A stretch of 64,000 nt of DNA, taken from contig JASAND010022912.1 in NCBI GenBank assembly GCA_030248195.1, positions 105,690 to 169,689 on the forward strand. The letters are read 5' to 3'. The notes under the pieces are model-generated. The model ran no database searches. It had not been told where the DNA came from and saw only the letters and a list, made by a program, of their open reading frames with translations. Position 1 is the stretch's first letter; every line of letters begins with the position of its first letter. This DNA is from Trissonchulus latispiculum (Eukaryota > Nematoda > Enoplea > Enoplida > Ironidae). Shown piece by piece: positions 5,575 to 42,962 of this stretch. The position numbers were made by a program, and so were the translations under genes.

Positions 5575-6784
5575 ACTATAGTCTAGCAAACTTAAACTGG
5601 ACCAAAAGAGTGAGTTTTGTGGAGAGTTTATTATTCAAGTTAAGTATGACAATGTATATATTTTCTGAAAGCTGAGAAATCAGAGATTTCAAAAAATTTT
5701 AAAAATTCTAAAATTTTAGAATTTCAAATTTCAGAAATTTTAGAAACTGTAGGAAAAGAAAAAATATGCGAAACGTAGTCGAGTTTGGTATCAAATGAAA
5801 GGTCTCGTTCAGGAGAACGCGAATATGTATCAATTATGCGGATTTAGTGCGGCACGTGGATCCAGCGGGCCCATATCCCGAAAAATAAAAGTTGCTCCAA
5901 TCGCTACAAACTTGGGCTCATTTGAAAGCTCTCATCACGCTGAGTGAAAGTTATAATTGCGTCATCGCTCAAAAATGCTGTCTGTGAAAGTTATCCCTCT
6001 TTAAACCCCAAAAATGGGCTGTTTGGACACTTTTGGAGGGTTTAATCAGGGCTAGCGAAAGCTGTGAGCTGAATCAAGTCAAGCCAATGCGCTACATTTA
6101 GCGTCTCATCATTATCCACAACTGCGTAAAAATTGCAGCTTTGGATCTTCATGCATGCGTAAGATAAGCTAATTTAAACAAACTTCAAAGGAACCGACAC
6201 GGCATGAAGATGCAAAGCTGCAATTTTTACGTAGTTGTGTATAATGATGAGATGCAAAATGTAGCGCATTGGCTTGACTTGATTCAGCTCACAGCTTTCG
6301 CAAGCCTGGGTTAAACCCTCGAAAAGTGTTAAGACTACCTGGTTTTGGTGTTTAAAGAGGAATAACTTTCACAGACAGCATTTTTGAGCGATGACGCAAT
6401 TATAACTTTCACTCAGCGTGATGAGAGTTTTCAAATGAGCCCAAGTTTGTAGCGATTGGAGCAACTTTTATTTTTCGGGATATGGGCCCGCTGGAACCAC
6501 GTGCCGCACTAAATCTGCATAATTGATACATATTCGCGTTCTCCTGAACGAGACCTTTCATTTGATACCAAACTCGACTACTTTTCGTTTATTTTTTTCC
6601 TTTTCCTACAGTTTCTAAAATTTCTGAAATTTGAAATTCTAAAGTTTTAGAATTTTTAAAAAATTTTTGAAATCTTTGATTTCTGAGCTTTCAGAAAATA
6701 TATACATTGTCATACTTAACTTGAATAATAAACTCTCCACAAAATTCACTCTTTTGGTCCAGTTTAAGTTTGCTAGACTATAGT
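5575..6784. repeat. 1.2 kb near-perfect palindrome (foldback element)
   Basis: The left arm starts ACTATAGTCTAGCAAAC and the right arm ends with its reverse complement at 6784. The arms are about 590 bp each, nearly identical, and meet around 6150-6200 with a short non-palindromic centre. There is no open reading frame of note. The structure fits a long-inverted-repeat (foldback) transposable element or a recent inverted duplication. The outermost shared bases, with CGTTATT-like flanks, suggest the full ends may lie slightly further out. A single-stranded form would fold into one hairpin of about 590 bp. Confidence 0.9.
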
Positions 6785-8422: not shown

Positions 8423-9865
8423 CGCATCGTTTGGAACCCAAAACCTACCGCTTATGAAGTTATAAACTATTAGCTGCTGACTCCAGCAGTAAGAGGTTAT
8501 TTTCCCGGTCTGTCTAACGTATGTTTCTGAAAGCGTTGAAATTTTTACTAGACTGTTACTCCGGTTTACTTAATTTTGACTGACCTAATTGAATTTTACA
8601 AGCAGCTGTAAGTTGGTTTGTATGTACAAACACTCATAGATACGAACTTAAAGTAACCACTCGCGACTTCATTAACATTGTCTTAGTGGTTTCTTGAATA
8701 CGTTAACTTCCACAGGGAATGCAGAAGATTTTCCGACAGTTAATCAACAAATTTTCAAAATTTTCGCATTCTATTGAAAGCTGTAACTAAAAGTTCGCAA
8801 TTTTCTTGAAACTTTGTCTCGAAATATTTTCAAACTTTCTCTGACGTTGTGCAATATTTCAGAAAACAGTCGTGTTTTCCATAAATTTGTATGGATTATT
8901 AGACAATTTTCAAAAATGGCCAGATGTAGCGAGTTTGACTTAGGAATACAATTTGGAAATGAGTTTTGAGTCTATATTTATCAAAAGTAATATTTCATGC
9001 ATAATTTCGTGCATACAATGATGTGAATTCATTGTTCAGGTGCAAACAATTCCGAATTTAAAAGGCATGGAACAAATATGTGAGATAAACTTTTTAAAAT
9101 ATTTTAAAGCGAATTGTGGTTCTGGCGGAATACAGTAGGTGGCTCGATATCTTTGACGTCTCTTGTGAATTTTTTCAAATTTTCAAAATTGAAGCAAATT
9201 TCATTCCGCAAGAATATAAATTTAATTTCAGTTAAGAATTAATGAAACAAATTCTCTGACTGTTTGCATTTTTTGCAAATACATCAGAAGAAGCATGAAA
9301 ACAGTGGTTATTGAAGAGGAGGTAATATAAAACAGTGTTACTGTGGACATTGATGATTTCAAATCATTTACAGTTAAAATTTTATAATTTTCAAAAATAA
9401 TTTTTTGAAAATACAATTATAAACCTAAAATACAAAACCCTGGCTTTCAAAGTAATTAGTAATAAAATGCCAGTGAAAGAGTTTGAAGTCGTATTTCGTC
9501 AGTGTAATACGCAATTGAATAATTGGAATTTCCTTAACCGAGCAAGTACACCTGACAATTTCGCTATAACAATTATAATCTAACGATTCAGACTGATTTA
9601 TTAGACAATTAACAACATCCACTCAAGCCCTGCCTGAATGTGACCAAAAATGCTACTTCAAAATTTATTCGGCATGCTTTTTGTAAAGCAATTGAAGTTT
9701 TTTGTGCTCTCAAAGGATTCGGAGGTTTAAATTCATAACTGCAATATCGAAAATCTCCATGTATATACTCACGTTTGTTCACTGATCAGAGGGTTGGATA
9801 ATCATTACTGTTTTGACGGCAAATCTCGTTCTCTAAAATTAGTGTTCAATTCAAATATGCAGACT
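8423..9865. other. Duplicated non-coding stretch with a conserved short frame
   Basis: No recognised gene. A minus-strand frame at 9425-9622 (65 codons) is kept in copy 2 (38133-38330) with two residue changes. The surrounding non-coding DNA is equally conserved, so conservation alone says nothing about coding here. Confidence 0.4.
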
Positions 9866-10645
9866 ATCAATCCAAATTCATATTTTCCTCTGCTTCAACG
9901 AATTCAGCTTGGCAAAATTTGGCTTCCTTATATAATGCAGAGCGTTTGAGGTTATGATAGTGAACGCTGTTCTTGCGCTCACCAAGCTTTGAATCAACTT
10001 CCTGCTAATAGAGGTAGTAGACAATTGACGAAACTTGAATGCTGTGCCAGGCAATCAAAAACCGCTTGTTAGGAGGTTGTACAGGATCTGTCCAACATGA
10101 TGAAACAACATAAATGAAATAGGAATCCACGATTGAACCAAATAACCGTCTGGGATCATTGGTACAGGAGTTAGGGGCAATCGCAAAACCGTGTTATGCA
10201 CACTAAGGATCTGCTGTGATGAGTTCAGCTGAGCCAGGATGAGCGAGCACAGTTGTCGTTGTCAGAATGCGAGGAGCAATCCCTTTTTCTAACATTTTAT
10301 CGACCGTTTCAACCGTTTCTAGCAAGAACAGTTTGATGCAAGTTTCTGAAAAACAAACATGTTTCCTCACAAAGGTCGTTAAAGAAACGATCCCTTCTCC
10401 CAGCCAGTCCGCATCCGCAAGAACCTGAAAGAATTGTCCTCGGGGATCGTTCTCCAGTGTGTTTCTGGCGAAGCCATAGTCTGCAAGATATGGGGCTCCA
10501 GGATGATTTTCCAGAATTTTCAGAAGTCTGGTTTCTTGTGGAAAAATTTCGCCTTCAAATTTATCCATTTTTTGGTCTTCTATGGGTGTAACCTTAATTA
10601 TTTCTTTTCGCTTATCAGATTTGGCCACACCAAAATAGAGCACGC
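9866..10645 (-). pseudogene. Kinase-like pseudogene, copy 1
   Basis: The minus-strand frame 10645-10203 reads like the N-lobe and catalytic-loop part of a protein kinase domain. It has a G-loop-like start, EIIKV in the place of the VAIK lysine, an E-rich helix C (GEIFPQETRLLKIL) and a segment EKGIAPRI where kinases have GI-HRD. It ends ITADP-stop where DFG would be. It probably follows an intron, since CCTTAG precedes the exon at 10645. A second frame downstream (10203 to about 9866) resembles a C-lobe (VGQILYNLLTSGF), but it is in another phase and carries an in-frame TGA at 10055-10057 where copy 2 has CGA. The HRD and DFG signatures are lost, so even an intact version would be a pseudokinase. 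Family assignment is by eye. Confidence 0.5.
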
Positions 10646-12646
10646 CTAAGGTAAAGCCGACTGAAATCTCCGGTTATTCAGCCAACATAAAGTCATCTTC
10701 TCTTAAGCTAATGCATACGAAATTTGAACTCATTCTAAAATAGGTTGCACATTTGTATAAAAGATACTAAATCTGGTATCTTGACCAGGTCAAAATAAAA
10801 AATCAAAAAATGGAGGAAAATCTATAATTATTAAATTTTAATTTATCGCTGAAACTAATTAATGTCTATGCATTTTTCCAACCACATTACATAATACGTA
10901 AGAGTATGACAAGAACTGTGTGATATATGTGTTGCGCAACGAAACCCATTCTCTGTTGGCCTATAATCTATGAATTCGCTGGTGTTCATAATGGCACTTT
11001 GCTTGAGTTTTCCATTAGACATCAATGGTGTGTGACTTCACCTGAGTGATGTCATTTTACAGATACTGGTAAATCGTGAATGCTTCTGTGTATCAGTGAG
11101 CTATCACGTCTGCCATACCTTTTATATCCACTACATCATCTTGATTTAACAGATTTCCACCAATTTCTTAATTTTTGACAACATTTATTGGCAAGCACTT
11201 TTCAAAGCTAACTGACAAAATTTCGGAAACCTTGTAAGTCTAACTTTTGTAGTGAATTTAAACGGGAATAATAAATAATGTCAGACAGCAGTCCTTGATT
11301 TGTTGAGAAGTCAGAGCACATTTTACTTTTAATGATTGATTCACTCCAGTGAATAAGTGATTTGAACGAGTACTTAGTGAGATTATACCATAAAAATCAT
11401 ACTGCTAAACCGAAACTGCGCTAAAACAAACAACAGTATTATTTTAATTGTGAGTTTACGCCAATAATTAATTCAACTTTTAAATTAAATAATGTTAGAA
11501 GGCGCAGTTTGACTCAAACTTTTTATTGCAAGAGACTAAAATCTCATTCTATGTTGAACCTACAATAAAAAATCTGCATAATCTATATATTAACTAGGGG
11601 TCGAGTCCGGTTTTGTCACAAGAACCCGAGAACTGAGGAGGTCTTTTAACTTGAACGGAAATGATCTTGTAAATTAGGCATCAATTTGTCGCAAAAGCTA
11701 CGTCATTTTTAAAAGTCTCAATAAAATCCTCTATCTTTGAAAGCAATCTTCAAATTTTGATCATATTTAATGAACCTTTATCTGAAAATGCCGATTAAGC
11801 AGAAATTTCAAAACAACAATACCTTTTTGTCTAGGACCTTGACCAAATTTTACTTTCTCTTTATTTTGACGGTACCAGGCATGTTTCTTGTTCAAACTGG
11901 AGTGTTACTCCAAGACCCAATGTTAACATATGGCCTGGCTTTTGCGAGCAAATGTAATAGCAAGTAAGACTACATTAAATAATTATATTTGAAAATGTAC
12001 AACTGGCAACTAAAACGGCAAACAAATTTCAAATGATTTGGACTGAGATTGTTGCTCTATTTAACTGAATAATATAATTCTGAAATAGATGTACAGAAAC
12101 TAATAAAATCTGTCAACCTTTGCTCAATTCACATTTGTCAACAATAATTGGAAATCTCTGATTTTACCAAGGCTATACTTGTATTCAATAAATCATATAC
12201 TACTGAATTGAATAATTCCAAAGTTATTAACTCTAGTAAAAGCTACGTTCTCTAGTTGAACTATAATAAAATGAATGATATTTTTGACATTTTCAGAACA
12301 CAGTCCTGATGACAATATTGAAAACTTTCCAGACAAAACGTATAGTGCTCGCTCTTAGTAATGAAATAAGTTTCCACGGTATGGTACAACTGACATTTAT
12401 TTAACTGACTAATTGGACACCAGATTAATATTAATTAATTAATACAAAATTGATGATAGAACCTTCTTGATTATTGGATTTGTGGTATAGATCCTTCGCA
12501 CTAGAAACGTCATAGGCTAAGATTAGGTGAGAAATACAAAAGTTTTGCTAAAAAATTTTGATCATTTATAAATGATTTTAGTTTAGAGACTGGAAGCTGT
12601 CACATAATTCCAGAAACAGCTCAACATCTGTACCGGAGATTTGTCC
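10646..12646. other. Duplicated intergenic DNA between kinase-like fragments
   Basis: I recognise no gene. The plus-strand frame at 11770-11967 is broken by a one-base difference in copy 2, so it is not treated as coding. The stretch could contain introns or missing exons of the neighbouring kinase-like sequences. Confidence 0.4.
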
Positions 12647-12934
12647 TCATTTTCTCATATATGGGGGACAGGGATATATATCCATCACTGGTGAAGTCAG
12701 GAAATACATTATACGTACGTGGTCGCGGATCTTTAGCGATGTAGTCAAGGCAAATACTTAATCAAGCAGTGGCACTTGCCCCGGCTTACATTCCAGTATT
12801 TTTATTATCTTGGTTTCAATAGGCACGATTTCTCCGTCTAACTCGTCAACTTTCTGGTGGTTTAGGTGGAAATCTTCATTATCACCCTTTTCGATTAACT
12901 TGACAGGGCTTAGAAATATAGCCCAAGTGTAAAG
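12647..12934 (-). pseudogene. Second kinase-like fragment, copy 1 (nonsense mutation)
   Basis: The minus-strand frame starting LYTW at 12934 aligns by eye with the kinase-like exon at 10645. KVDELDGEIVPIETKIIKIL matches KMDKFEGEIFPQETRLLKIL, and PLLD-VFA matches YLADYGFA. Copy 1 has TAA at 12758-12760 in that last motif, while copy 2 has TAC (Tyr) at 42127-42129. The frame ends with TGA at 12647-12649. It is therefore a dead paralogue of the upstream fragment, and the segment already held two kinase-like copies before it was duplicated. Confidence 0.5.
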
Positions 12935-13498
12935 CCTATGGATATGGGAAGTTTTTCATCTAGCAGTGGTTTATACTGACCATGTGTAAGGGAAATCTAT
13001 TCAACATTTTATTCTACCAGAGAGATTTTATATCCAGTTTTTGTTGAATCCTCTCTCTAGTTTAGTTATATACCAAAATAGAAATATTATAAGCTCTGAA
13101 CGAAGCTTATAAATAAATTAGATAGAGTATATATTCCTAATAAGATAGACTATTCCAAGTTGATCATTATCTCCAGACGTGTATGGTGTATTACTTTGCA
13201 GGTTGGCCTTGCATTCTGTACTACATGCGCGGATACTGTGTGATGTTCTGGACGCCTATCTATTTGTAACCTTGCCAAGACAGTATAGTTTGCGGATAGT
13301 TCCTGTGTGTCCTACCGAAGTTGTTCTAGAACAAAACAAAACAAACAACCAGCTGTATTAATTTGCCATATGCTCATGCCATGTCATGCCATTTATGCTT
13401 TCGAGGTATTCCATGTCTTACCTCAGGAAAGAGCTTATAAGAAGACTTGAGCATCCAATTGCCTTGATTAGTTAATCAAGAAAAGATCATTAGTTGTG

Positions 13499-13600
13499 AT
13501 CTGAGACTTATGCTAGGCAAGTGTCGACCCCGCTTAAATCAGAAATCACTGTTGCGATCTGAGACTTAGACTACCGGCAAGTGTCGACCCCGATTAACGA
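13499..13600. repeat. Direct repeat containing a 20-mer seen elsewhere
   Basis: Two units beginning GATCTGAGACTTA each carry GGCAAGTGTCGACCCCG followed by CTT or ATT (13516 and 13576). The unit spacing is about 60 bp. Copy 2 keeps both (42883 and 42943). The same 20-mer occurs inverted at 28365-28384 in the hairpin-rich block. Confidence 0.7.
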
Positions 13601-14380
13601 AATTCACTCAAGTCCTACCATCACTCAACGGACTCACGACAATGCCCCCAACCCAGGGTGGCTACAGCAACCCTCAAATTTGGACAAATCACCTTTTGGA
13701 AGTCCTGTGTCCTATAAATTTACTGATCTTGGTAAACGCGCTGACCATCCGTGTAATCGAAGAAGTAGTTTCCTTAGATTAACCTAGTCAGGTTAAAACA
13801 ACACGTTTTATTATAGATCGAATCATATCAATCACATACGAAAGAAACGAGCGAGGAAATTTAGCTTTAGCAGCCAAATCCAATTCACTTCATTGCACAT
13901 GGTCCAGTTCGTAAGCATGAACATCATTCAAAACACAACGCATAACAAAACATTTATATCAGCATCCTATTCAACCCAAAAAACCATTACTATCCACAGC
14001 AGTCGCTAAACAACCAATTAAATTACTCGAGAAACCTAACTCTTCAGCCATGTTGATACGGTATAGAGCATGTATCTGCTGTATTACTGTTAAATTTTGA
14101 ACTGAATCTTTTCCATTGTTTTGTAGCCATTGAAGTTTGGTAGAAGTTGAACTACTTTTAAAATAATATTTTGCAACATATTTTTGGTCAGTTTAAAGGA
14201 GCGTATTTAAATGGTTTTCATGGTCACAAGGTTGTTGGTTTAAGCCTTTCCCAAATTTATCAGCAGATCTCTTAAACACAAAAACATTTGTTCTAAGCTG
14301 TTCATTGTCTTGATAAAGTTAGCGAATCGTGATTCACATCAATTGAAAATATGTTAAGGCAATCTTGCAACGACTAGCAG

Positions 14381-15277
14381 TCAGTCATGGGCATTTCCCT
14401 GATGGGCACCCACTTTGCTCTGACGTCGTGCCATCCGCTTCACCATTGCCATTGCTGCTCTGCGATAGGATGGATTACACGTTATGTAGATAGGAAAGTT
14501 AATGCCTGAGTTTATTATAGTGAATGTATCAGCTGCAGAACAGCACATCGGATTCCATCGCGAATGCTCAACGCTTAAGTGCAGCAAACGATTAACCCAG
14601 TTACAGCACAACATGGTACAGGTTGATACAGCAAAACTTAGTGCAGTAATCATGAGCATCAGTGTTATATCTTTGGCAACGTCAGTCTGTTTATTGACTT
14701 GCTTTACCATTTTCCCTTTAACTCTAATGTAGGTAGTACTGATTGCGATGCAGAGAATAAAAATCGTGACGACATAACAGAGTCTTAGTCCCCAGTAGGT
14801 GACAAGAAAATAAGTTTGCCAAAGTTTATGCTCTGTGATCTCCAAGTTGACTTCTGCTTTGTACAGTTGCTTATGAGTTTTTACGACTCTCCGCTCAAGA
14901 CCTGCCGGTAACGAAAGCAAAACATTTCCCAACGTTAAGCCAGAAACGACAGACTTTGGATTAGTCGACATTGGTAGGTCATTAAATTTGTGTGGTATAA
15001 CCAAGGCCAGAAGCCGTTCAGCTGTTATCAAACACAGTGTGGAGCCAGCAAACATTTGTGACCAACGTTCAACAACCGGCCTAATGTAAGCTGCATAGAA
15101 TCGGTATGCAAACGTTTTCTCCAAGTTGGCAACGTGACCGACATAGACGGAGAAAAATACACTGATAAGCAGCAGATCGCTGATCGTAATCATACGCAGA
15201 TAAATCCATACGGGTTGTTTCCGTAAAACTGGAGATGCCAGGACAAAGAGATTGATAATGCCTACAATAAATAGCTT
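14381..15277 (-). CDS. Rhodopsin-like 7TM receptor, last exon (copy 1)
   Basis: This exon encodes most of a rhodopsin-family GPCR in the plasma membrane. It runs from the end of TM1 (GIINLFVLASPVL, with the TM1 Asn), through TM2 (ISDLLLISV, with the TM2 Asp) and the TM3 end (LITAERLLALVIP, where ERL replaces DRY). TM5 and TM6 follow, and then TM7 with NSGINFPIYITCNPSYR, a variant of NPxxY, and a basic C-tail. No Met starts the frame before TM1. The only early ATG (15193) falls after TM1, so an upstream exon with the N-terminus and the rest of TM1 must exist and was not identified. About 25 of 270 residues differ from the copy 2 receptor and both frames are open, so both may be functional. The ligand is unknown. 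Confidence 0.75.
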   Translation of the reverse strand, partial: KLFIVGIINLFVLASPVLRKQPVWIYLRMITISDLLLISVFFSVYVGHVANLEKTFAYRFYAAYIRPVVERWSQMFAGSTLCLITAERLLALVIPHKFNDLPMSTNPKSVVSGLTLGNVLLSLPAGLERRVVKTHKQLYKAEVNLEITEHKLWQTYFLVTYWGLRLCYVVTIFILCIAISTTYIRVKGKMVKQVNKQTDVAKDITLMLMITALSFAVSTCTMLCCNWVNRLLHLSVEHSRWNPMCCSAADTFTIINSGINFPIYITCNPSYRRAAMAMVKRMARRQSKVGAHQGNAHD

Positions 15278-17196
15278 GGAATATAGAAGATTGAATTTGA
15301 ATTAGTTTCTCAAGGAAAGAATAATTTTAGTTAAACCAGGCCAAATTTAATTTTAGCGGAGGAAATAAACATTAATTTGGCAAAATGCATCGAAATCACA
15401 AGCTACGAACAATCCAACATGATGCTTATACTCTCATTTTGCTCCAATCTCTGAAAATAAGGTGCCAAAGATATATTCTTCGGACAGAAAAATCGACGTT
15501 TTTTCTTTCATTATATACCATGAATTTGACTATGCAAATTAAAACTTATCTAAGTAATGAAACGCTCAACGTAGTGTCCGTTAACTTGCGAACTGCAAAC
15601 AAAAGCCAAAACCTAAAGTTTCCATCTGAACTGACACTGGTGATTTCTTTTGGAGGTACCTATCTTGGATACTTATTGAAGATTAAATACTTGGTATAAA
15701 ATGCCAATGATATGCCATAATGTAGCTTAAGATTTTCTCTTTTCAGAAGATACAATGAAACGTATTTATTGGCTTCTGGAGTTTTCTTAATTAAAATCAT
15801 AGAAAGAACGCAATATTTCATGTTTTTGCCGACTAAATTAAAGTTTCCGGTTATATCACTCGATATACCACTAATTACTGAAGGAAAATTTCCAGTTTTC
15901 AGACAATCTCTCGTCGCTTTGAAGGAATTAGCTTATTAGGTTGTGCAACTGCACCTTATCCACTTTTCTCAAGTTTGTCAAGCTACTACTTTGGCTAGAG
16001 AACAGTCATCAGAACAAAAAGAGGTCCTGAGGTAAACAGCGTTTTCTAGGTTTCATTGGTCAAATATGAGTTCGATACGTTTCTGTTTCGATAAGCTTAT
16101 CTAGTCAGAAAACAGAGAGATAAGCATTTTGCGATGTAGGCGTGTAATCCGACAAAACGAACAAACTACCACTAATCGTATAAACACATATTAAAGAGTG
16201 TGTCGATAAAGCAACACACGAAGGTACTTGCTTGACGCAAACGCAAAAGTACAGCAAATAGGATATCCGATTAAAAGGCGGTAACGCCAAGCGGCACCGG
16301 CAAATTCGATGTTATAGTAAATTTCTTTCGATTCTTCATCTAGAGCTGCTGTACAGTTGACATCACTTCGTTGATCTGTCCGGCTGCAATGAAAATCCAA
16401 AGACATTTACCTGTAATAATTGTTATGTATCCGTTATATTATCATCTTTGATAAGTGGTGATTTTCGTAACTGTATAAATTGCTTATAAAAGTTAAGTAG
16501 AAAGAAGCATGGCTACCAAAACTGAGTACTCAGAGTAATAATATTAAATGTTTTCGGTTTGCTCTTAGTTAGTTTACAGTTGCTTTGTGTTTGTTGCTTT
16601 GTTGTTTGTGTTCAGTATGAAGTCATGTTCAACTATTCTTTAAGGCATAACCGTAACAAATTATGATTCGTGAAAAATTACCACGTATCTTGTAGTCCAC
16701 GTCACAAGAAGTATTCAAGTTGCTCATCTGAAATCTTTTGAATATCTGGCCAAATTTTTCCAACAACGTTGGCGAGGATTAAAGCACAAATTCTAATTCA
16801 AATGCTAGAATCCTAGCACACCTTATCAAATATGTGTGTCATGGCCTTCCCATTTGCTTGACATCGTTAAACGAACTGCCGCAGAAACTTTGATTTCTGG
16901 AACTCTACGTATCAGAAGAAAGTTGAGAGTTCCAGAAATCATTTACATGAACTGGTTCACTAGACACATATGGTTGCACCTTTCACTAAATGTTTACAGC
17001 AGACTCAAAGTAAAGTACTTGACAACTGCGACAGCTCAGCTATTAGCAACATTGACATATTTGCATGCTCCCATAAAAGTGTTTCTGAATGTTGTGCAAG
17101 ATTTTGCACGGAACTATTTTTATAAAACTTGTCATTGGGGTTTCATTTATTTATTGACATTTATTGACTAAATTCTATTATCAAGTAATGATTAGC
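15278..17196. other. Intergenic DNA between receptor and lectin
   Basis: The duplicated block ends at 15698. Frames at 15385-15699 (plus), 16191-16406 (minus) and 16836-17171 (plus) show no recognisable domain. The first is not kept open in copy 2. A small inverted repeat built on TTTCTGGAACTCT lies near 16885-16945. Confidence 0.4.
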
Positions 17197-18229
17197 TCAC
17201 TTCGAAGAATTATCGCAAGCAAAAGTTTCTAAGTGCGGAATTTCACAGGCAAAGGGCAGTTTCTTATCGCAAGGTAAATCTTTCAAGATGTACTGGTTTT
17301 CTTGTTCCTTCATAGCAAAGCAGTCTGAACCGCAGAGTCCTATTTCCCTATTTCTGGGATGGTTCCAGCCCCTTTCGGAAAGTTTGTCGTAGAAATTGTC
17401 TGGTGCAGAGCAACCACTATCCAACTGCAGATGTCCTTCATTATTTCTGTCGTGCACTCCAATCCAAAAGTAGTTTTGGCAATAACCCAACGGTGGCCAA
17501 CAATCAGACGATAAATCATTTCTAAAATTACAATAATTACTACAACTAGTAAAAGCAATCAAAAGCAGTAAATTTAAAGCATTCAACATTCTAATAGCGA
17601 TAATAATGATAGTAAAATTCTTTTGAGATTTGGCACCAGGGCAAATCCAGCATCAGACAAATCTAACTACATTTGCATTTGCAACAAAAGTATATTAATA
17701 ACATTAACAAACATGTCAACGTTTTGTGTACGGTGTTCAAATAATCAAAATCAGCCGATATTACGTGATATGCCAAGAAGCAAAACCAACATAAATGTCA
17801 GTAGACGTCGACTAGAAAGTGAATGTTTTGGATTAGAGTTACCGGTAGTACAGCCCCAAGGCCGGAACTAAAAACAAATGGGTGAGCAGAAGCAAAAACC
17901 CTGACAGAGGCACACACAACACAACACGAGCACACACATTTGTGTGTATATGTATAAGAATCCTATGGTATCGACTCGTACAAAGAATATTGCAACCCAG
18001 CTTACGTAATATTCAGCAAAGCATTTTCAATTGCCGCCGTTGAAGGTGTTGCTAAATAGCCGCCATATTTTCGACACTGTTGACCAGCTTCGAGCCAGGT
18101 TAAGCCTTGGACAAAAATATTTAAACAAGCATGACTGACTTCCGTCCAATCTTTTCTGCAAGTTGATGTTTCATAAGTTTCAAGAAACAAAAGTAACCAA
18201 GTTATTGCTGTAATGTGTTTTCTGGGCAT
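17197..18229 (-). CDS. Secreted C-type lectin-domain protein, two exons
   Basis: Exon 1 is 18229-18006 and exon 2 is 17521-17197, giving 182 residues. The exon 1 donor GTAAGC follows ...ATT AC and the acceptor TTTTAG precedes A AAT GAT, so the phase joins exactly and gives a Thr codon. The start at 18229 yields a signal peptide (ITAITWLLLFLE). The single C-type lectin domain shows the N-terminal Cys and W-T-E-V, then a WLEAGQQCRKYGGYLA helix, the YFWIGVHD core strand, and the final C...LPFACE. In the Ca2+/sugar site the usual EPN or QPD is replaced by HPR (GWNHPRN) and no WND is seen, so Ca-dependent sugar binding is doubtful. Lectins of this size are usually extracellular recognition proteins. 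The gene lies in a stretch present only in duplication copy 1. Confidence 0.85.
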
Positions 18230-21024: not shown

Positions 21025-21237
21025 TGGGTTTTAACCCATTTGATTCAGTTCTAGGAAATTCGATTACGTGCGTGTGCTTTTATGTTGGACCTGGACATTT
21101 TTGATTTCTGACTGCTGGACTTGGAGAGCTACCATCGCAACCGGATTTCTGTATAACTCCAGAGTGAGGATTGCCATCGATCCCCCTGGACCCTGGTTTA
21201 TCTATTAATTAATTCTTGGTTTCGAAGTTCTCCCTAG

Positions 21238-22548
21238 ATGCCTGCTGATCATAACCCCCGACCTTGCCATAGTGACTGCGGTATGCCTATTGGAAAGATG
21301 GACCAGCAGGTCGTCTGCCACCAGTGCTGTCGCGCCCACCATGCGCGCTGCATTGGGCTTATCTCCCAACTCTTCATGAACTACGAAAAAATGCTTAAGT
21401 TGAATTTGAATGTTGTCTGGCTGTGCGACTCGTGCCTGAGATCCTGCTCACGACCGAGTCAACCCACAGGCCATTCTGACGTCGCAACCCAGGCGGATGT
21501 GGCTCCCCAGCTAAAGGATGCAATGACCCAGTCTATTCCTAAGCCCACATCTAGTTCCGGCAATATGTATTCCCTCCACCCTAACTCTCAAGATGCCTCT
21601 TTCCCCGGTGTAACTATTTTCTCTGGCGCCTCTGATCCTCTCTCCTGCTTTTACCTGTTTGATTTTGAATTTGATGGAAAAAAATTCTTGTCTGCTGAAC
21701 ACGCTTTCCAATATTACAGAGCTCTCTTTTATGGCTTGGATGAAGTTGCCGAAAGGATCCTTCAGGCTCCCACTGCGGCCAAAGCGAAGAAAATTGGTAC
21801 GCTTGCCAACATTGATTGCAGTCGTGATATGTCCTACGAATTCCTTCTCATGGTGGACATTCAGAAAGCCAAGTTAGAACAGTGTTGTTCATTTAGGGAT
21901 GCTTTGAGAAGCAGTGGTAATTCCCTCCTTGCTCATTCTACGTACCCCAGCAAAGACGCCTACTGGTCAACAGGCCTGCATAAATACGCCCCTGTACGAT
22001 CTGCTGTATTTCCTGGTCAAAACGTTCTAGGGGAAATCCTCATGGATCTACGTCGATTTATTGGCCCAGAGAAAGACTATACCTCTGCGTGTGATGTCCT
22101 GGACATGGGGGATTATGTTCAGATCCTGAAGGATGGCGAAGCTCCCATAAAGCCAGTGCCCAGAAAGTCAAAGCCTAACCGCCCAAGCCAAAGTCCGCGA
22201 TCAGCGGACCTGCCTGTATCCTCCAAGTCTGCTCCACTGTGTTTCCACTGTGGTGTAAGAGGCCATACCACCGGAACATGTCGTCTGCGGAAATTTGGCC
22301 CGATTCTGTGTTTCAGGTGTCAGACACCTGGCCACAAACACCGATATTGCCCATTTTCCGCCAACGAAGGGCCTGCTACCACCCAAATGGAGCAAGTGCT
22401 GCCAAGGAGATCTGCTATGGTTCCCCCATTCCTTGGCCCTGCAAAACCTCGCCGCCCTCTCCTACCTACCCCAAACTGCCAAGTACGGTCTTATTCAGAC
22501 GTGGTTTGTGCCCCAAACGACTATGCGAATTTCCCACCACTACGTTGA
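21238..22548 (+). CDS. Retrotransposon ORF1: PHD-like finger, NADAR domain, two CCHC knuckles
   Basis: 436 residues. Residues 9-66 hold a Cys/His cluster (CHSDCG, VCHQCCRAHHARC, WLCDSC) like a PHD finger. Residues about 124-275 match the NADAR/YbiA-like fold: a start with CFYLFDFEFDGK, then SAEHAFQYYRALF (the conserved Glu-His-Ala-Phe), ILQAPTAAKAKKIG, the YWSTGL motif, and NVLGEILMDLR at the end. Residues 334-347 and 358-371 are two C-x2-C-x4-H-x4-C zinc knuckles, typical of nucleic-acid-binding ORF1 or Gag proteins. ORF1 proteins package element RNA. NADAR proteins act on ADP-ribose-linked substrates, so the domain may process ADP-ribosylated nucleic acid or protein, but this is inference. 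The ATG at 21238 is the first in frame after the leader. ORF2 is in the same frame 18 nt downstream. Confidence 0.85.
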   Translation: MPADHNPRPCHSDCGMPIGKMDQQVVCHQCCRAHHARCIGLISQLFMNYEKMLKLNLNVVWLCDSCLRSCSRPSQPTGHSDVATQADVAPQLKDAMTQSIPKPTSSSGNMYSLHPNSQDASFPGVTIFSGASDPLSCFYLFDFEFDGKKFLSAEHAFQYYRALFYGLDEVAERILQAPTAAKAKKIGTLANIDCSRDMSYEFLLMVDIQKAKLEQCCSFRDALRSSGNSLLAHSTYPSKDAYWSTGLHKYAPVRSAVFPGQNVLGEILMDLRRFIGPEKDYTSACDVLDMGDYVQILKDGEAPIKPVPRKSKPNRPSQSPRSADLPVSSKSAPLCFHCGVRGHTTGTCRLRKFGPILCFRCQTPGHKHRYCPFSANEGPATTQMEQVLPRRSAMVPPFLGPAKPRRPLLPTPNCQVRSYSDVVCAPNDYANFPPLR

Positions 22549-22566
22549 GGATGTGGCCACGGTAGG

Positions 22567-25410
22567 ATGGCCGCTGAGAATGTAGATAGCAACGGTACTG
22601 TTGACACTATTCATAGCTTTTTCAACGTGGTTTTCTGTAATATTAGGAGTGTCTGTAATAAGTTCAGTCAGCTGCATTTCGAAGTTTGTCTACAATATAA
22701 CTTTCCAGAAATTATTATATTGAATGAAACGTGGTTGAAAGAAGAATATCCAAATAGCTTATTTTTCTGTAATGGCCAGTATAATATTTATCGCAGGGAT
22801 CGGGAAAACGGAGATAGGGGGGGAGGTGTAGCAATTTTGGTGAAAAAATGTTTGTCCAGCAGGGAGCTAAAAATACCAGATTTACATTCCATTGAAGGAA
22901 TTGCTGTTGAAGTGCGTGGGTTGGGAAGCAAAAAATATATATACAGCACTTTCTATAGAGCAGCTGTTTCCTGCACTGACTGTTTCTCAAGTTTGGAAAA
23001 ATGTTTAAAATTTTTGCTAAATAAGCAGGCCCCTCTTATTGTCACTGGTGATTTCAATTTACCCGGTGTGGATTGGAAGGTACCACACGCCGTTACTACT
23101 TTTAATCAGGATAAGTTTTTAAATTTGTTTCTGGAAAACGGTTTTTACCAAAAGGTTCATGAGCCCACAAGGGGAAGTAGTACGTTAGACCTTGTTTTCG
23201 AGAGCATTCCAAACCTGGTTTCTGATGTCAAAATTCAGCCTCCTGTCGCTACTAGTGACCATTGTTGCGTATGCTTTAATGTAGATGCAAGTTTCGTATC
23301 TCCTCACAGCCGGTCGTACTTCTGTTGGGACTTGGCGGACTATGCGGGTATGCTTACTAGCCTTGAAATGGTGAATTGGGGTAATTTATTTGCTCCGTAT
23401 ACTGCTGTGAACGATAAGTGGCTGGTTTTTAAGGAGTTATGCTTACAAATCATTGAGGAAAACGTACCAAAGAAAACTATTTCAGGCAAGAAAAGACCGA
23501 AATATCCTAAAAACATTAGGCGCCTTTTATCTCATAAACGAAAATTGCATAAAGTTTTGCTAAAGTCTCCCAGTAACGAAAGTAAGTTGCGATTTAATGA
23601 AATTTCTGCAAGATGTGACACGGAAATTTGCAAATTCAATTACAATTCTGAGTTAAGATATGTACAGAAACCTTCTAACCGTGCTTTCTATACTTATGTG
23701 AAACGTAAACTGTGCTGCGATGAGGATGTATCTGTATTGTGTTCAAATGATAAAATAGCCGTTGAAGATAAGGACAAGGCTAACTTATTAAACTGTCAGT
23801 TTGAGTCTGTTTTTGTGCGGGACGACGGGAGGGCCGTCCAACTGACGGAAAAAGAATTTGATTTTGGTTTCGAAAATGTGCTCTTTACTAGTACCGCTAT
23901 TCTTGAAGCTATTAATACTTTAAAAGTTACCTCTGCCGCTGGTCCAGATGAAATTCCTGCTAGGTTCTTTAAACTTTGCAAATATCAACTTTGCCGACCA
24001 CTTCAGATTATCTTTCAGCAGTCTTTCAATGATGGGATTTTGCCAGAAGATTGGTTAGTAGCGCACGTAGTACCTATTTATAAGGGGAAGGGTAGCAGAT
24101 CGTCGCCGGAAAATTATCGGCCAGTGTCATTGACTTGTATTTGTTGTAAGATTATGGAGAAAGTATTGAAGAGATTTTTGCTCGAGCATTTGATAAGAAA
24201 CAAGCTTATAAGTAGGGAACAACATGGGTTCTTGTCTCACCGATCAACTCAGACTCAGTTATTGGAGTGTGTAAATTTCTGGTCAGCCAAACTTAACGAT
24301 AAAGAGGGGGTTAAGGTACTGTATTTGGACGTAAGCAAGGCTTTTGACTCTGTTTCGCATGTCAAACTTAAGAGCAAACTTAGATCGTACGGGATACGCG
24401 GACAGGCTTTGACTTGGTTAGAGTCTTTTCTAACGGGAAGGGTTCAGTATGTTAGGGTAAGGAATGTGCTTTCCGATGTTGCTGAAGTGTTTAGTGGGGT
24501 ACCCCAAGGCAGTGTTCTTGGACCCGTGCTCTTTCTTATTTATATTAACGATCTCCCTGATGTTTGTGTGAACTCAAAAGTAAAGATTTTCGCTGACGAT
24601 ACTAAAATTTTCTCCTCAGGAGCTTCTCTAAACCTCTTTTTGAGTTTCCGAAATGACTGTGGTGGTGTCTTTGACTGGGCATCAGAAAACCAACTTTCGA
24701 TAGCGTCCAACAAAAGTATGCTTCTTGAAATTGGTGCTCCTTATATTGCTTCCGATTTTGAAATCAATGGATTAAAAATACCAAAAGTTGAATATGTAAA
24801 GGATTTAGGGGTTTACATTACCTCTGATCTGAAGTTTTCTATGCATGTAGATAAGATATGTGCTAAAGCTTTTCAAAAGACTGCTGTTATCTTTAAGTCC
24901 TTCTGCTGTCGTGATCTTAAGTTTTTATTAGCTATGTATACACTTTATGTCAGACCAATTTTAGAGTATAACTGTTGTGTCTGGTCTCCTTATCTAATGA
25001 AGGATATTAATAAGTTAGAATTAGTGCAGAGGCGATTCACGAAAAGAATACCTGAAATTCGGGATCTTTCCTACAGTGACCGACTCAAAATTACGGGCCT
25101 TGAGACACTTGAGAGTCGTAGACTTAAAGCGGATCTAGCTCAAGCTTACAAAATTATCCACGAAATGGGTAATGTAAATTCTGCAGAATTTTTTTCTTAC
25201 GCTGTAGAAACAGGTACACGTGGTCATGAGTTGAAATTGCGAAACTGCAGGTCCAGGCTTGATTGTCGCAAGCATTTTTTTGCAAACAGGGTAGTTCCAG
25301 TTTGGAACAGTTTAAATTCTGGCATCATATCCGCCCCAAACATTAGTGTATTCAAAAAGAGGCTTGATTCTGTTAATCTACGCAATTTCTTAAAATACAA
25401 GCCTGATTAA
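22567..25410 (+). CDS. Retrotransposon ORF2: APE endonuclease and reverse transcriptase
   Basis: 947 residues. The AP-type endonuclease occupies about residues 20-240: NETW near 53, RRDR followed by GGGVAILV, TGDFN near 159, and SDH near 231, which are the catalytic signatures of non-LTR endonucleases. The reverse transcriptase covers about residues 460-740: LYLDVSKAFDSV near 583, GVPQGSVLGP near 643, and the catalytic FADD near 674. The C-terminal region (RPILEYNCCVWSP, LELVQRRFTKRI) matches the conserved tail of CR1/L2-like proteins. There are no internal stops. It nicks target DNA and primes reverse transcription there. The start codon at 22567 is in frame with ORF1 across one TGA. Confidence 0.93.
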   Translation: MAAENVDSNGTVDTIHSFFNVVFCNIRSVCNKFSQLHFEVCLQYNFPEIIILNETWLKEEYPNSLFFCNGQYNIYRRDRENGDRGGGVAILVKKCLSSRELKIPDLHSIEGIAVEVRGLGSKKYIYSTFYRAAVSCTDCFSSLEKCLKFLLNKQAPLIVTGDFNLPGVDWKVPHAVTTFNQDKFLNLFLENGFYQKVHEPTRGSSTLDLVFESIPNLVSDVKIQPPVATSDHCCVCFNVDASFVSPHSRSYFCWDLADYAGMLTSLEMVNWGNLFAPYTAVNDKWLVFKELCLQIIEENVPKKTISGKKRPKYPKNIRRLLSHKRKLHKVLLKSPSNESKLRFNEISARCDTEICKFNYNSELRYVQKPSNRAFYTYVKRKLCCDEDVSVLCSNDKIAVEDKDKANLLNCQFESVFVRDDGRAVQLTEKEFDFGFENVLFTSTAILEAINTLKVTSAAGPDEIPARFFKLCKYQLCRPLQIIFQQSFNDGILPEDWLVAHVVPIYKGKGSRSSPENYRPVSLTCICCKIMEKVLKRFLLEHLIRNKLISREQHGFLSHRSTQTQLLECVNFWSAKLNDKEGVKVLYLDVSKAFDSVSHVKLKSKLRSYGIRGQALTWLESFLTGRVQYVRVRNVLSDVAEVFSGVPQGSVLGPVLFLIYINDLPDVCVNSKVKIFADDTKIFSSGASLNLFLSFRNDCGGVFDWASENQLSIASNKSMLLEIGAPYIASDFEINGLKIPKVEYVKDLGVYITSDLKFSMHVDKICAKAFQKTAVIFKSFCCRDLKFLLAMYTLYVRPILEYNCCVWSPYLMKDINKLELVQRRFTKRIPEIRDLSYSDRLKITGLETLESRRLKADLAQAYKIIHEMGNVNSAEFFSYAVETGTRGHELKLRNCRSRLDCRKHFFANRVVPVWNSLNSGIISAPNISVFKKRLDSVNLRNFLKYKPD

Positions 25411-25708
25411 CAATTTCATATAATGTAGTTGGTTCTTGTATATACTTACGTATTTATACATACGTTGCGTATAGTTATGTATTCACACTTTAGACCTATA
25501 TGTGTATGTTTTTGTAGGTTTTATAATATTGCTGATTTGTTGTTGTGGTTGATTTACGGATATATATGACATTTTGTAGCTATTGCAGGGGCGTGCAGAT
25601 TCTTGTGCGTCTCCTTTTTGGCCATTATATATATGCGATGTGTATTCACTTTGAAATTGTATTGACAGTGCTGATTGGCCAAATAAACATTTTTGATTTG
25701 ATTTGATT

Positions 25709-26862
25709 TGAACCGTCATGGCATGAACTTTCTATTGGTTGAAAAAAAATTCTTAAAAAATTAAAATTCATCAAAAGAAGCCGATTTTTTAAGTTTTGAA
25801 AGATCAGTAGAAGCCAGGAACTAGCCGTTCGGTGGAACATTAGCCCATGTCCCAGACATTTTGAATCCCGAATATCAGCTGATTTCGTCAAAAATTGCGA
25901 TAGTTATTCAATTTTTTCGATTTTCAAAATCCTTTGATCTTTGCCGTTTTTCCAACTTTGACTGGCTATTTCTCGCGACTCACTCAATGCAAAAAATTTT
26001 TGATTGGATTTTCAGGACCGCTTACGTGTCAGCTTTCATGTGATATATGTGGTTTTTCAAAATTTGAAAATCGATTTTTTCGAAAAATACCACTTTTTGA
26101 CCCAAAAGTTCGACAATACGAATCCAGCAAAAGTGGGTAAAAATAACATTATCATAAAGTTTAATCTGAGCTGAATCCAACGATATAAATTTTTCGTTGC
26201 TACGGCTTAAATTACCACAGCAACGAATTTTTAAACAATTTCCTATTTCAGCTGATTTCTGACAAGTTGTGCTATATTGTGGATTGATTTGCCGCAAATA
26301 GTGTAAACTAGCCAAAAACCGGCTAAAAAGCGAAATTGTTTAAAAAATTCGTTGCTGGGGCAATTTAAGCCGTAGCCACGAAAAATTTATGTCGTTGGAT
26401 TCAGCTCAGATTAAACTTTATGATAATGTTATTTTTACACACTTTTGCTGGATTCGCATTGTCGAACTTTTGGGTCAAAAAGTGGTATTTTTCGAAAAAA
26501 TCTATTTTCAAATTTTGAAAAACCACATATATCACATGAAAGCTGACACGTAAGCGGTCCTGAAAATCCAATCAAAAAAATTTTGCATTGAGTGAGTCGC
26601 CAGTAATAGCCAGTCAAAGTTGGAAAAGCGGCAAAGATCAAAGGATTTTGAAAATCGAAAAAATTGAAACTATCGCAATTTTTGACGAAATCAGCTGATA
26701 TTCGGGATTCAAAATGTCTGGGACATGGGCTAATGTTCCACCGAACGGCTAATTCCTGGCTTCTACTGATCTTTCAAAACTTAAAAAATCGGCTTCTTTT
26801 GATGAATTTTAATTTTTTAAAAATTTTTTCAACCAAAAGAAAGTTCATGCCATGACGGTTCA
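25709..26862. repeat. 1.15 kb palindrome directly 3' of the CR1 element
   Basis: The arm TGAACCGTCATGGCATGAAC at 25709 recurs inverted at 26843-26862. The arms are about 530 bp with few differences and a centre of about 90 bp near 26250-26330. The right flank CAGAAAATATATACATTG (from 26861) is the same string found just inside the right arm of the 5.6-6.8 kb palindrome (about 6692), hinting at a shared family. There is no credible ORF: frames at 25646-26641 are mirror images of each other. Confidence 0.88.
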
Positions 26863-29077: not shown

Positions 29078-29589
29078 ATGCTATACGGTCGCCAAGGGTC
29101 AAACACAAGGGGGTCCGGTTGGGGAGTTTCCTGGTCCGTTTATGGGGTTAGTACAAGTGTAGTTTGATTTAATCTCTTCTTTAAGTCTTCTACTGCCGAC
29201 TGACTTGAAAGACCACTGAACCAATTAGACCAAAGACAGGGGGTGACAACCCCTTCGATAAGGCTGATGATTAGCTCGAAAAGATTCATCTTTTGTAGTG
29301 AAAGAATAAGAACCACTTTGGATTAGTTGAAAACGATATCAAGTTCTCTTTGTTAGGTTTTAGGTCCCACACTAGATTCTGGTGCTGTATCTGCAATTGT
29401 CTCTGCCTTAATCGTTCCCCAAAAAGTCTGAACTGACTCTCAAAGTACCTTGGCAAAACTGATTCTGATCCAAACAATTATCCACAATATCCGTATCCTT
29501 CGACTGAACTGACTACTGATCAATTAATGTAAGCACTGAGACTCCGATGACTGACAATCTGACTTTGATTCCGGCAGGACAGATGAGAG

Positions 29590-29655
29590 CTCCGCACCTG
29601 AATCAAATGGGTTAAAACCCATTAATACAAGTTATAGGTGCGGGATTCGAACCCA
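29590..29655 (-). repeat. tRNA B-box with nested hairpin (SINE-like)
   Basis: CGCACCT/AGGTGCG arms enclose AATGGGTT-AA-AACCCATT. On the minus strand GGTTCGAATCC (29643-29653) precedes it. The inner string TGGGTTTTAACCCATTTGAT recurs at about 21027-21046, just 5' of the retrotransposon, so it is a dispersed element. Confidence 0.55.
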
Positions 29656-30007
29656 GCATCTATTACTCACATTTTGGCTTTCTGAACTTGAAATAAACTT
29701 GTACAAGTTGAAATTGCTGTGAAAGTTTAAGATTTAAGTGGATTGAGACAAGTTCTGAATGATTTGAGTAAGATCACAATACTTAAAATCGGTTTTAAGC
29801 AAAACGCTAGTTTTTAGGGCAATTTCTTGCATTCTTACGCAAGAAACAACTTCAATGTGGAACTATGATTTCAGGTTGATTTCTCTTTGTACAGTCTGCT
29901 TCTATACGATTAAGACCTATTACTCGAAATTGACACACTTTTGGGTCCTTTTAACAGCAGATAGGTACCCATTTACTCAGCTAACGCGAGAAACATTAAA
30001 TTGGTTA

Positions 30008-37137: not shown

Positions 37138-38585
37138 CGCATCGTTTGGAACCCAAAACCTACCGCTTATGAAGTAGCTGCTGACTCCAGCAGTAAGAGG
37201 TTATTTTCCCGGTCTGTCTAACGTATGTTTCTGAAAGCGTTGAAATTTTTACTAGACTGCTACTCCGGTTTACTTAATTTTGACTGACCTAATTGAATTT
37301 TACAAGCAGCTGTAAGTTGGTTTGTATGTACAAACACTCATAGATACGAACTTAAAGTAACCACTCGCGACTTCATTAACATTGTCTTAGTGGTTTCTTG
37401 AATACGTTAACTTCCACAGGGAATGCAGAAGATTTTCCGACAGTTAATCAACAAATTTTCAAAATTTTCGCATTCTATTGAAAGCTGTCACTAAAAGTTC
37501 GCAATTTTCTTGAAACTTTGTCTCGAAATATTTTCAAACTTTCTCTGACGTTGTGCAATATTTCAGAAAACAGTCGTGTTTTACATAAATTTGTATGGAT
37601 TATTAGACAATTTTCAAAAATGGCCAGATGTGGTAGCGAGTTTGACTTAGGAATACATTTTGGAAATGAGTTTTGAGTCTATATTTATCAAAAGTAATAT
37701 TTCATGCATAATTTCGTGCATACAATGATGTGAATTCATTGTTCAGGTGCAAACAATTCCGAATTTAAAAAGGCATGGAACAAATATGTGAGATAAACTT
37801 TTTAAAATATTTTAAAGCGAATTGTGGTTCTGGCGGAATACAGTAGGTGGCTCGATATCTTTGACGTCTCTTGTGAATTTTTTCAAATTTTCAAAATTGA
37901 AGCAAAATTCATTCGGCAAGAATATAAATTTAATTTCAGTTAAGAATTAATGAAACAAATTCTCTGACTGTTTGCATTTTTTGCAAATACATCAGAAGAA
38001 GCATGAAAACAGTGGTTATTGAAGAGGAGGTAATATAAAACAGTGTTACTGTGGACATTGATGATTTCAAATCATTTACAGTTAAAATTTTATAATTTTC
38101 AAAAATAATTTTTTGAAAATACAGTTATAAACCTAAAATACAAAACCCTGGCTTTCAAAGTAATTAGTAATAAAATGCCAGTGAAAGAGTTTGAAGTCGT
38201 ATCTCGTCAGTGTAATACGCAATTGAATAATTGGAATTTCCTTAACCGAGCAAGTACACCTGACAATTTCGCTATAACAATTATAATCTAACGGTTCAGA
38301 CTGATTTATTAGACAATTAACAACATCCACTCAAGCCCTGCCTGAATGTGACCAAAAATGCTACTTCAAAATTTATTCGGCATGCTTTTTGTAAAGCAAT
38401 TGAAGTTTTTTGTGCTCTCAAAGGATTCGGAGGTTTAAATTCATAACTGCAATATCGAAAATCTCCATGTATATACTCACGTTTGTTCACTGATCAGAGG
38501 GTTGGATAATCATTACTGTTTTGACGGCAAATCTCGTTCTCTAAAATTAGTGTTCAATTCAAATATGCAGACTATCAATCCAAAT

Positions 38586-41994: not shown

Positions 41995-41997
41995 CTG

Positions 41998-42303
41998 TAC
42001 CGGAAATTTGTCCTCATTTTCTCATGTACGGGGGACAGAGATATATATATCCATCACTGGTGAAGTCAGGAAATACAATATACGTACGCGGTCGCGGATC
42101 TTTAGCGATGTAGTCAAGGCAAATACGTAATCAAGCAGTGGCACTTGCCCCGGCTTACATTCCAGTATTTTTATTATCTTGGTTTCAATAGGCACGATTT
42201 CTCCGTCTAACTCGTCAACTTTCTGGTGGTTTAGGTGGAAATCTTCATTATCACCCTTTTCGATTAACTTGACAGGGCTTAGAAATATAGCCCAAGTGTA
42301 AAG
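41998..42303 (-). pseudogene. Second kinase-like fragment, copy 2
   Basis: The counterpart of 12647-12934, but open throughout: LLDYVFA is intact (TAC at 42127-42129) and the frame continues up to the MITE at 41994. It is homologous by eye to the first half of the kinase-like exon at 39360. It has no catalytic-loop segment, and the MITE now sits right behind it, so it is probably a fragment rather than a working exon. Confidence 0.45.
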
Positions 42304-42882: not shown

Positions 42883-42962
42883 GGCAAGTGTCGACCCCGC
42901 TTAAATCAGAAATCACTGTTGCGATCTGAGACTTAGACTACCGGCAAGTGTCGACCCCGATT
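42883..42962. repeat. GGCAAGTGTCGACCCCG direct repeat, copy 2
   Basis: Two units, at 42883 and 42943, identical in arrangement to 13516 and 13576 of copy 1. Confidence 0.7.

Follow-up and report, generated by a model that had tools for sequence, protein, structure and literature searches.

A NADAR domain under selection in ORF1 of a CR1-like LINE from the nematode Trissonchulus latispiculum

Results and discussion

A nearly full-length LINE with two intact reading frames

The DNA analysed, hereafter the window, is a stretch of 64,000 nucleotides from T. latispiculum (contig JASAND010022912.1). It contains a nearly full-length CR1-like LINE, delimited by alignment with other genomic copies, in which ORF1 and ORF2 are both intact and adjacent. 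The features of the element, all on the plus strand, are as follows.

About 21026..25712, plus strand: nearly full-length CR1-like LINE (alignment with other genomic copies)
21026..21237, plus strand: 5' end (GGGTTTTAACCCATTTGATTCAG...) and 5' UTR (CCCATTTGATTCAG after unrelated flanks)
21238..22548, plus strand: ORF1, 436 aa, ATG to TGA, with PHD-like finger, NADAR, CCHC, CCHC and FPPL (ORF list, Pfam, alignment)
21265..21435, plus strand: PHD-like C4HC3 finger, residues 10-66 (Cys/His ligands, profile matches)
21601..22074, plus strand: NADAR domain, residues 122-279, Pfam 138-274 (Pfam, hhalign, PDB profile matches)
21697..21699, plus strand: Glu154, at the Glu43 position of the P. nicotianae NADAR (alignment)
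21718..21720, plus strand: Arg161, at the Lys50/Lys95 position (alignment)
21934..21936, plus strand: His233, at the Glu125/Asp171 position (alignment, hhalign)
22240..22350, plus strand: two CCHC zinc knuckles, residues 335-371 (ligand conservation, Pfam, PDB)
22531..22542, plus strand: C-terminal FPPL motif (alignment of 21 ORF1s)
22546..22573, plus strand: stop codon of ORF1 with the conserved junction TGA-N6-GGCCACGGTAGGATGGCCG; ORF2 follows in frame (copy comparison)
22567..25410, plus strand: ORF2, 947 aa, with endonuclease (residues 45-232) and reverse transcriptase (514-721) (Pfam Exo_endo_phos, RVT_1)
25692..25711, plus strand: 3' (TTTGA)n tail (sequence; similar tails in L044, L047 and L049)

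Alignments with other copies begin between 21022 and 21053, and CCCATTTGATTCAG is preceded by unrelated flanks in nine of the ten copies compared besides that of the window, with ends differing by some bases. At the 3' side, the four copies that read through to the tail (L043, L044, L047 and L049) finish at 25699-25712, and the alignments of L046 and L048 break off at 25629. No convincing target-site duplication was seen around the LINE, and tblastn (E ≤ 1) revealed no further ORF1 or ORF2 copies in the window. The closest copy, L043, starts at 21053 and is 99.6% identical over 4656 aligned bases, with zero synonymous differences across the 947 codons of ORF2, indicating that the family moved recently.

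A short-repeat 3' tail instead of poly(A) is a trait of the CR1/L2/Jockey group, and the window element combines its (TTTGA)n tail with two further traits of that group, an APE-type endonuclease (EN) joined to a reverse transcriptase (RT) and the lack of a Pfam RNase H match in ORF2 at E ≤ 1. Window ORF2 also matched a C-terminal CR1 fragment (43% identity across 91 aa), scoring 72.8 bits where 200 shuffles reached no more than 27.7. The CR1-like label fits the EN and RT, the PHD-like finger of ORF1, the TTTGA tail and the CR1 C-terminus match, and the element is probably a recently active CR1-like LINE.

Past the ORF1 stop, frame 0 is the longest open frame in all 27 readable copies (from 30 loci, leaving out L016, L020 and L030), and the stop codon is TGA in 26 and TAA in one of these, near-identical copies counted. 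The junction motif is also present in 18 of 20 longer loci. The ORF2 ATG is altered in four of the 27 (ACG in L031, AAG in L032 and L039, GTG in L038), and L031, L032 and L039 are still open over all 498 codons examined. The junction might act as a readthrough or a termination-reinitiation element. The stretch N6-GGCCANGGTAGGATGGCCG is conserved after the ORF1 stop and allows GGCCA/TGGCC pairing, with a mismatch in L023, L031, L032 and L039.

ORF1 joins a NADAR domain to a PHD-like finger and zinc knuckles

The sequence-only reading had described an intact frame at 21238-22548 with a NADAR domain lying between a PHD-like finger and two CCHC knuckles. The frame is intact, running over 436 aa from ATG to TGA, and the domain assignment held up under profile comparison. 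Pfam NADAR (PF08719) matches residues 138-274 with 58.9 bits (E 9.6e-16; cut-off 35.1), PHROG 1017 matches at E 1.3e-20, and TIGR02464 (NCBIfam) gives E 5.1e-17, yet its 62.5 bits lie below its own cut-off of 73.7. A profile of 14 own-genome NADAR domains retrieved E. coli YbiA (2b3w, E 9.3e-10) and NADAR 8bau (3.6e-7) from the PDB, and hhalign of the LINE NADAR against six phage/bacterial NADARs gave 99.7% and E 3.5e-27. The domain is present in all 21 aligned ORF1s, 14 from the host genome and seven metagenomic (Pfam, E ≤ 0.05). Pfam Phage_30_3 matches 3/21 (best E only 0.0038), and PADLOC PDC-M42C matches the window protein (E 1.2e-11) but not three metagenomic relatives. The Pfam, hhalign and PDB profile scores rule out a chance match, and the domain is confirmed by these comparisons as a member of the NADAR superfamily.

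In the N-terminal finger, ligands C10, C14, C27, C30, H35 and C38 are invariant in 23/23 own-genome ORF1s, and the last two Cys are visible in the alignment, outside this count. Pfam calls no PHD in window ORF1; across the 21 ORF1s, PHD-type models match a minority (PF15446 in five, PF00628 in three; E ≤ 0.05), and the finger has a weak PDB match to the Pygopus PHD (E 0.058). All eight knuckle ligands are invariant in the same 23 sequences, Pfam zf-CCHC is found in 14/21 (E ≤ 0.05), and the PDB matches are nucleocapsid and Lin28 knuckles. P433 and L435 of the C-terminal FPPL are invariant in 21/21.

The known CR1/L2 ORF1 types I-IV are recognized by an RRM, Tnp22 or esterase, none of which occurs among the 15 Pfam families matched by the 21 ORF1s at E ≤ 0.05 (remote RRM-like folds are possible), and the PHD-like finger is present. 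Here and below, statements from papers cited by PMC number refer to the parts of those texts available to us. ORF1 types of the CR1/L2/Jockey group have been described with PHD, RRM, CCHC, Tnp22 and esterase domains, type III of CR1/L2 carrying a PHD and an occasional RRM (Metcalfe and Casane 2014, PMC4120745). Similar to the window ORF1, many of those groups have an N-terminal PHD and some have knuckles, and domain shuffling and reticulate ORF1s are reported; the window ORF1 differs in having a NADAR instead of an RRM or esterase, and the available text describes no NADAR type.

NADARs as such are already known in retrotransposons, having been reported in 2025 from a Gypsy lineage of Ectocarpus and from ORF1 of several Tx1 LINEs of Crassostrea gigas (PMC12477816). 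These YbiA-family NADARs are likewise retrotransposon-borne, with RNA-intermediate processing as the suggested role, but the oyster Tx1 elements belong to another LINE clade and the Ectocarpus NADAR to Gypsy Pol of LTR elements, both compared here by description and not by sequence. The available parts of that paper make no mention of a PHD-NADAR-CCHC architecture, pocket residues, dN/dS or Polintons. In the literature searched, mostly outside subscription journals and without Repbase, we found no earlier report of a CR1-type NADAR ORF1 or of the PHD-NADAR-CCHC architecture.

The fusion recurs in relatives, with signs of module exchange

At least 99 ORF1 matches, 42-100% identical, were found in the host genome (733.8 Mb) from the best 96 of 1640 first-look candidates. 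Of these, 58 cover the full frame (start at or before residue 10, end at or after 413), and 52 of the 58 are stop-free. The NADAR domain is covered by 89 of the 99 matches, with no stop in the matched part of 79. The copies scored were the best ones, and intactness is therefore overstated by these counts. Seven metagenomic ORF1-like proteins, called LINE-type by architecture alone, are 27-36% identical to window ORF1 and share the NADAR and the knuckles; the finger is found in the three that reach far enough upstream, partly cut in P0003. The search for the same fusion in related elements thus agrees with the sequence-only reading, the domain being kept in genomic copies and in the seven metagenomic proteins alike. 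In L058 (G000:C12287), ORF2 is 75-77% identical to those of the window and L047 and ORF1 only 50-51%; together with the disagreement between the ORF1 and ORF2 trees, this indicates module exchange between subfamilies.

Constraint on the NADAR domain is comparable to that on endonuclease and reverse transcriptase

Selection was measured on 23 own-genome ORF1s, several of them near-identical, after leaving out seven partial or broken loci of 30 (L014, L015, L016, L020, L027, L030 and L036). Between subfamilies, NADAR dN/dS is 0.12 (L012-L017), 0.15 (L012-L019) and 0.17 (L017-L019); very distant pairs have saturated dS and are given no ratio. Pooled over eight non-independent pairs, dN/dS rises from 0.051 in the CCHC region through 0.137 in NADAR, 0.198 in PHD and 0.268 in linker 2 to 0.536 in linker 1 and 0.599 in the tail. 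For comparison, ORF2 of the window and of L047, the element with ORF1 L018 of the L017 subfamily, gives 0.104 for EN and 0.139 for RT. Mean amino-acid identity over 229 pairs follows suit, at 0.685 for NADAR, 0.686 for the knuckles and 0.213 for linker 1.

The domain is thus constrained like the core enzymes, and the selection that the sequence-only reading had presumed is borne out by dN/dS across the genomic copies. The only signs of a relic, that is, of a captured NADAR hitch-hiking and kept by chance, come from near-identical pairs with few changes, in which whole-ORF1 dN/dS is 0.96 (L012-L013) and 1.30 (L028-L033); dead copies are expected to show no constraint after insertion, which accounts for such values. 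Against these stand the 0.12-0.17 between subfamilies, the 52 stop-free frames among 58 full-span copies (the best ones having been scored) and the presence of the domain in seven distant metagenomic ORF1-like proteins. Since NADAR dN/dS resembles that of EN and RT and lies far from the ~0.5 of the linkers, the domain is selected, and the relic explanation, rejected on dN/dS, is very improbable.

A remodelled pocket of the His type

In the P. nicotianae NADAR, roles have been assigned to Glu43, Lys50, Glu125, Asp130 and Trp133, and the residues that contact the pyrophosphate include Trp89 and Arg93 (PMC11543638). Residues were mapped with three MAFFT settings, the pairing of His233 also with hhalign, in 23 own-genome and seven metagenomic LINE-type NADARs (near-identical copies counted) and 10 phage/bacterial references. 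The sequence-only reading had pointed to a Glu/Trp/Asp pocket, of which the Glu stands in full and the other two residues in part. Glu154, at the Glu43 position, is found in 23/23 own-genome and 7/7 metagenomic sequences (references: E 9/10, Q 1/10). Trp243, at the Trp133 position, is kept in 23/23 own-genome sequences but is Phe in 7/7 metagenomic ones, and residue 240, at the Asp130 position, is Asp in only 12/23 own-genome sequences and in 7/7 metagenomic ones.

The remaining positions are changed. Lys at the Lys50 position, which like Glu43 is largely conserved across the NADAR superfamily and is universal in the references (10/10), occurs in 0/30 LINE-type NADARs, which have Arg in 27 (23/23 own-genome, four metagenomic), Ser in one and Gln in two, the last three all metagenomic. 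The Glu or Asp expected in the last strand of YbiA-/BC4488-family NADARs is absent, His233 taking its place in 30/30 (references: E 8, H 1, L 1), and HSTY (233-236) is kept in 21/21 aligned ORF1s. Matched through spacing and the alignment, and not directly to the P. nicotianae protein, the Trp89 position corresponds to Asp197 in 23/23 own-genome sequences and a gap in 7/7 metagenomic ones (references: W 10/10), and the Arg93 position is Glu201 in 23/23 own-genome sequences and D in six and R in one metagenomic (references: K 4, R 4, S 2). Two ADP-ribose contacts thus seem to be lost. The LINE NADARs share with DarT1-linked and YbiA-family NADARs (PMC11543638, PMC11125620) the profile family, Glu43 and, in the own-genome set, the Trp133 position, and differ in the His at Glu125, the Arg, Ser or Gln at Lys50 and the changed Trp89 and Arg93. 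Because the Glu/His pair is kept and the phosphate contacts are altered, we regard them as a distinct His-type subgroup. The Glu125 position is reported to hold Asp in DarT1-linked NADARs and His in phage ones (PMC11543638), including the gp30.3 type (PMC11125620). Of our seven phage references, five have Glu and one Leu in this column, and the only His belongs to L001, which aligns poorly and is without the DxxW stretch.

Hydrolase activity of the LINE NADAR is plausible, and the changed pocket calls for caution on mechanism. The loss of the aligned ADP-ribose contacts and the variable Lys50 position would suit a module that hydrolyses little or nothing and instead binds a ligand or protein, in the course of RNP assembly or the processing of RNA. 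There are parallels: nematode SNA-3, also a NADAR protein of animal nuclear RNA processing, acts in trans-splicing and contacts the CBC-ARS2 complex (PMC9303266). SNA-3 is a cellular gene product with three NADARs, likened to the LINE protein by description and not by sequence, and mutations at its catalytic positions impair function, an effect on folding being allowed by the authors (PMC9303266). Roles in RNP assembly and in targeting to membranes have been suggested for the esterase domain found in other ORF1 proteins of CR1/L2 elements. Glu154 and His233 fixed in 30/30 and HSTY in 21/21 are more than a scaffold seems to need, and we consider a pure binding role rather doubtful.

The remodelled pocket could also reflect another substrate, the domain serving as an N-glycosidase or ADP-ribosyl hydrolase on a small ADP-ribose signal, on NAD-capped or otherwise 5'-modified RNA, or on a protein adduct of ORF1p or ORF2p. 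NADARs do act on riboflavin intermediates, and soluble ADP-ribose derivatives have been proposed as substrates (PMC9503650). The neighbouring modules, RNA-binding knuckles and a PHD-like finger, suggest nucleic acid or chromatin instead, and RNA adducts at phosphate ends were not removed by the NADARs assayed (PMC11833690); we consider an alternative substrate of this kind unlikely.

Further NADAR-bearing elements of the host genome

A PF08719 search of the host genome returned 2478 candidates, and each of the 150 that were scored passed the cut-off with 124-150 bits, well beyond the LINE-type scores. Ten loci among these 150 were read. L063 encodes a 180-aa NADAR (150.4 bits, Pfam) in which the Glu, Lys, Glu, Asp and Trp are all present by reading, flanked by an A32-like packaging ATPase ORF (Pox_A32, 37.4 bits) and a TATA-binding protein (125.9 bits; TATA-box-binding proteins in the PDB, best E 6.5e-21). 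Upstream on the same contig, C11883, lies an rve integrase (38.6 bits) with a chromodomain (49.1 bits), and one short ORF matches DNA_pol_B_2 with 18.1 bits, below the cut-off of 25.8. No capsid profile matched among the ORFs scanned on C11883.

Polinton/Maverick elements are marked by an rve integrase, an A32-like packaging ATPase, DNA polymerase B and capsid genes, and the carrier on C11883 looks like an element of this type. Gene orders are alike in L062-L067. Polinton-like NADAR loci comprise L062-L067, L072 and L073 (G000:C11883, about 60000-70113), with similar copies on other contigs. A further repeat family, L068-L071, has an open frame of at least 645 aa that ends in a canonical C-terminal NADAR (142.1 bits in L069), followed downstream by an ORF of up to 205 aa; in L069 the open frame has no Pfam domain besides NADAR. 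In addition to the LINE, NADARs therefore occur in two or more types of element or repeat. The literature searched, mostly outside subscription journals, yielded no NADAR-bearing Polinton.

Probable captures of the domain

The LINE-type NADARs (14 own-genome and seven metagenomic) are split from the 10 phage/bacterial references with support of 100/99. The split remains at 100/98 in an extended tree of nine own LINE, seven metagenomic and four other own-genome NADARs with nine references, the Lactobacillus phage row being left out. A single capture of the LINE-type domain is likely within this sampling of own-genome, metagenomic, phage and bacterial NADARs. The other own-genome NADARs form a separate group (99/97) beside the bacterial ones (81/74), and repeated capture by mobile elements of the host genome is therefore likely. 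L001, the sole His-type reference, groups next to the LINE-type NADARs (90/75 and 92/82), a placement flagged as a possible long-branch artefact. It was the one phage-type NADAR obtained when viral contigs were searched with the ORF1 alignment; single ORF1 and ORF2 queries confirmed nothing there, and prokaryote contigs yielded one Clostridiales NADAR piece, L002. With the domain alone as query, a protein search for the nearest cellular NADAR gave no match at E ≤ 1e-3 among 1173 candidates.

A possible role in counter-defence

The best explanation of the combined results, which we hold with somewhat less than even confidence, is a CR1-like LINE whose RNA-binding ORF1p has captured a NADAR that erases an ADP-ribose-type adduct as a means of counter-restriction. 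The captured domain would occupy the slot of the RRM or esterase of other CR1/L2 elements, and the PHD-like finger (chromatin) and the CCHC knuckles (RNA) would carry it to the RNP and the target site. There it might clear element RNA, cDNA or target DNA of an N-linked, ADP-ribose-type adduct, with guanine the most likely site of attachment, and so lift an obstacle to reverse transcription. The host would in this model impose a restriction of the PARP/ART type, faced also by the other NADAR-holding mobile elements of the genome.

This eraser role is supported by the low NADAR dN/dS, by the fixation of Glu154 and His233 in 30/30, by the reported His of gp30.3-type phage NADARs (PMC11125620), by the NADARs of other retrotransposons (PMC12477816) and by a K95R mutant that retained activity in vitro (PMC11543638). 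It is weakened by the replaced Trp89 and Arg93 contacts, by the Ser or Gln at the Lys50 position in three of seven metagenomic proteins, by the rarity of His at the Glu125 position in phage references (1/7, L001) and by the failure of the K95R mutant to rescue cells from DarT1 (PMC11543638). NADARs are the sole hydrolase family found to reverse guanosine ADP-ribosylation of RNA, a T4 phage NADAR being active (PMC11833690), and a shellfish enzyme that ADP-ribosylates guanine in DNA has a proposed role in antiviral immunity (PMC8053099). NADARs in polyproteins of animal RNA viruses, likened here by description and not by sequence, similarly belong to RNA-based genetic elements and have been proposed to counter host ADP-ribosylation, though in a virus polyprotein and not a LINE ORF1 (PMC9503650).

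An anti-defence role gains weight from the separate branch of NADARs borne by the genome's other mobile elements. Constraint and the presence of NADARs in unrelated elements together argue for a function tied to mobility, and the relatives in unrelated elements hint at a shared obstacle; counter-defence is the leading, though unproven, reading of the NADAR's role. More speculatively, and with clear doubt on our part, nucleic-acid ADP-ribosylation may stand in the way of mobile elements generally in this animal lineage; NADAR erasers would have been acquired more than once, by CR1-like LINEs, by Polinton-like elements and by one or more other repeat families, and the LINE version would have evolved a distinct Glu/Arg/His pocket tuned to the adduct on its own RNA or cDNA.

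Roles of ORF1 beyond RNA coating are poorly known, and animal erasers of ADP-ribosylated DNA and RNA have few known roles. The constrained NADAR ORF1 and the other carriers offer a direct way of testing whether transposons are restricted by ADP-ribosylation of nucleic acid, and the NADAR-bearing elements of this genome are natural candidates for such tests.

Other features of the window

A long fold-back at 25709-26862 abuts the LINE tail, with arms of 342 bp (94%) and 162 bp (99%), and another lies at 5575-6784. On the minus strand, a piece at 29560-29660 contains 24 bases of the LINE 5' end and GGTTCGAATCCC, which we take to be a tRNA B-box-like motif; it is perhaps a SINE sharing the LINE start. 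The minus strand also encodes a RING-like finger (56895-57425, below cut-off) and a C-type lectin domain (17197-17652, 24.2 bits, just over cut-off). A large duplication links 8471-15701 and 37175-45033, with listed blocks 84-100% identical, and includes a GPCR-like ORF at 14381-15301 and 43745-44653.
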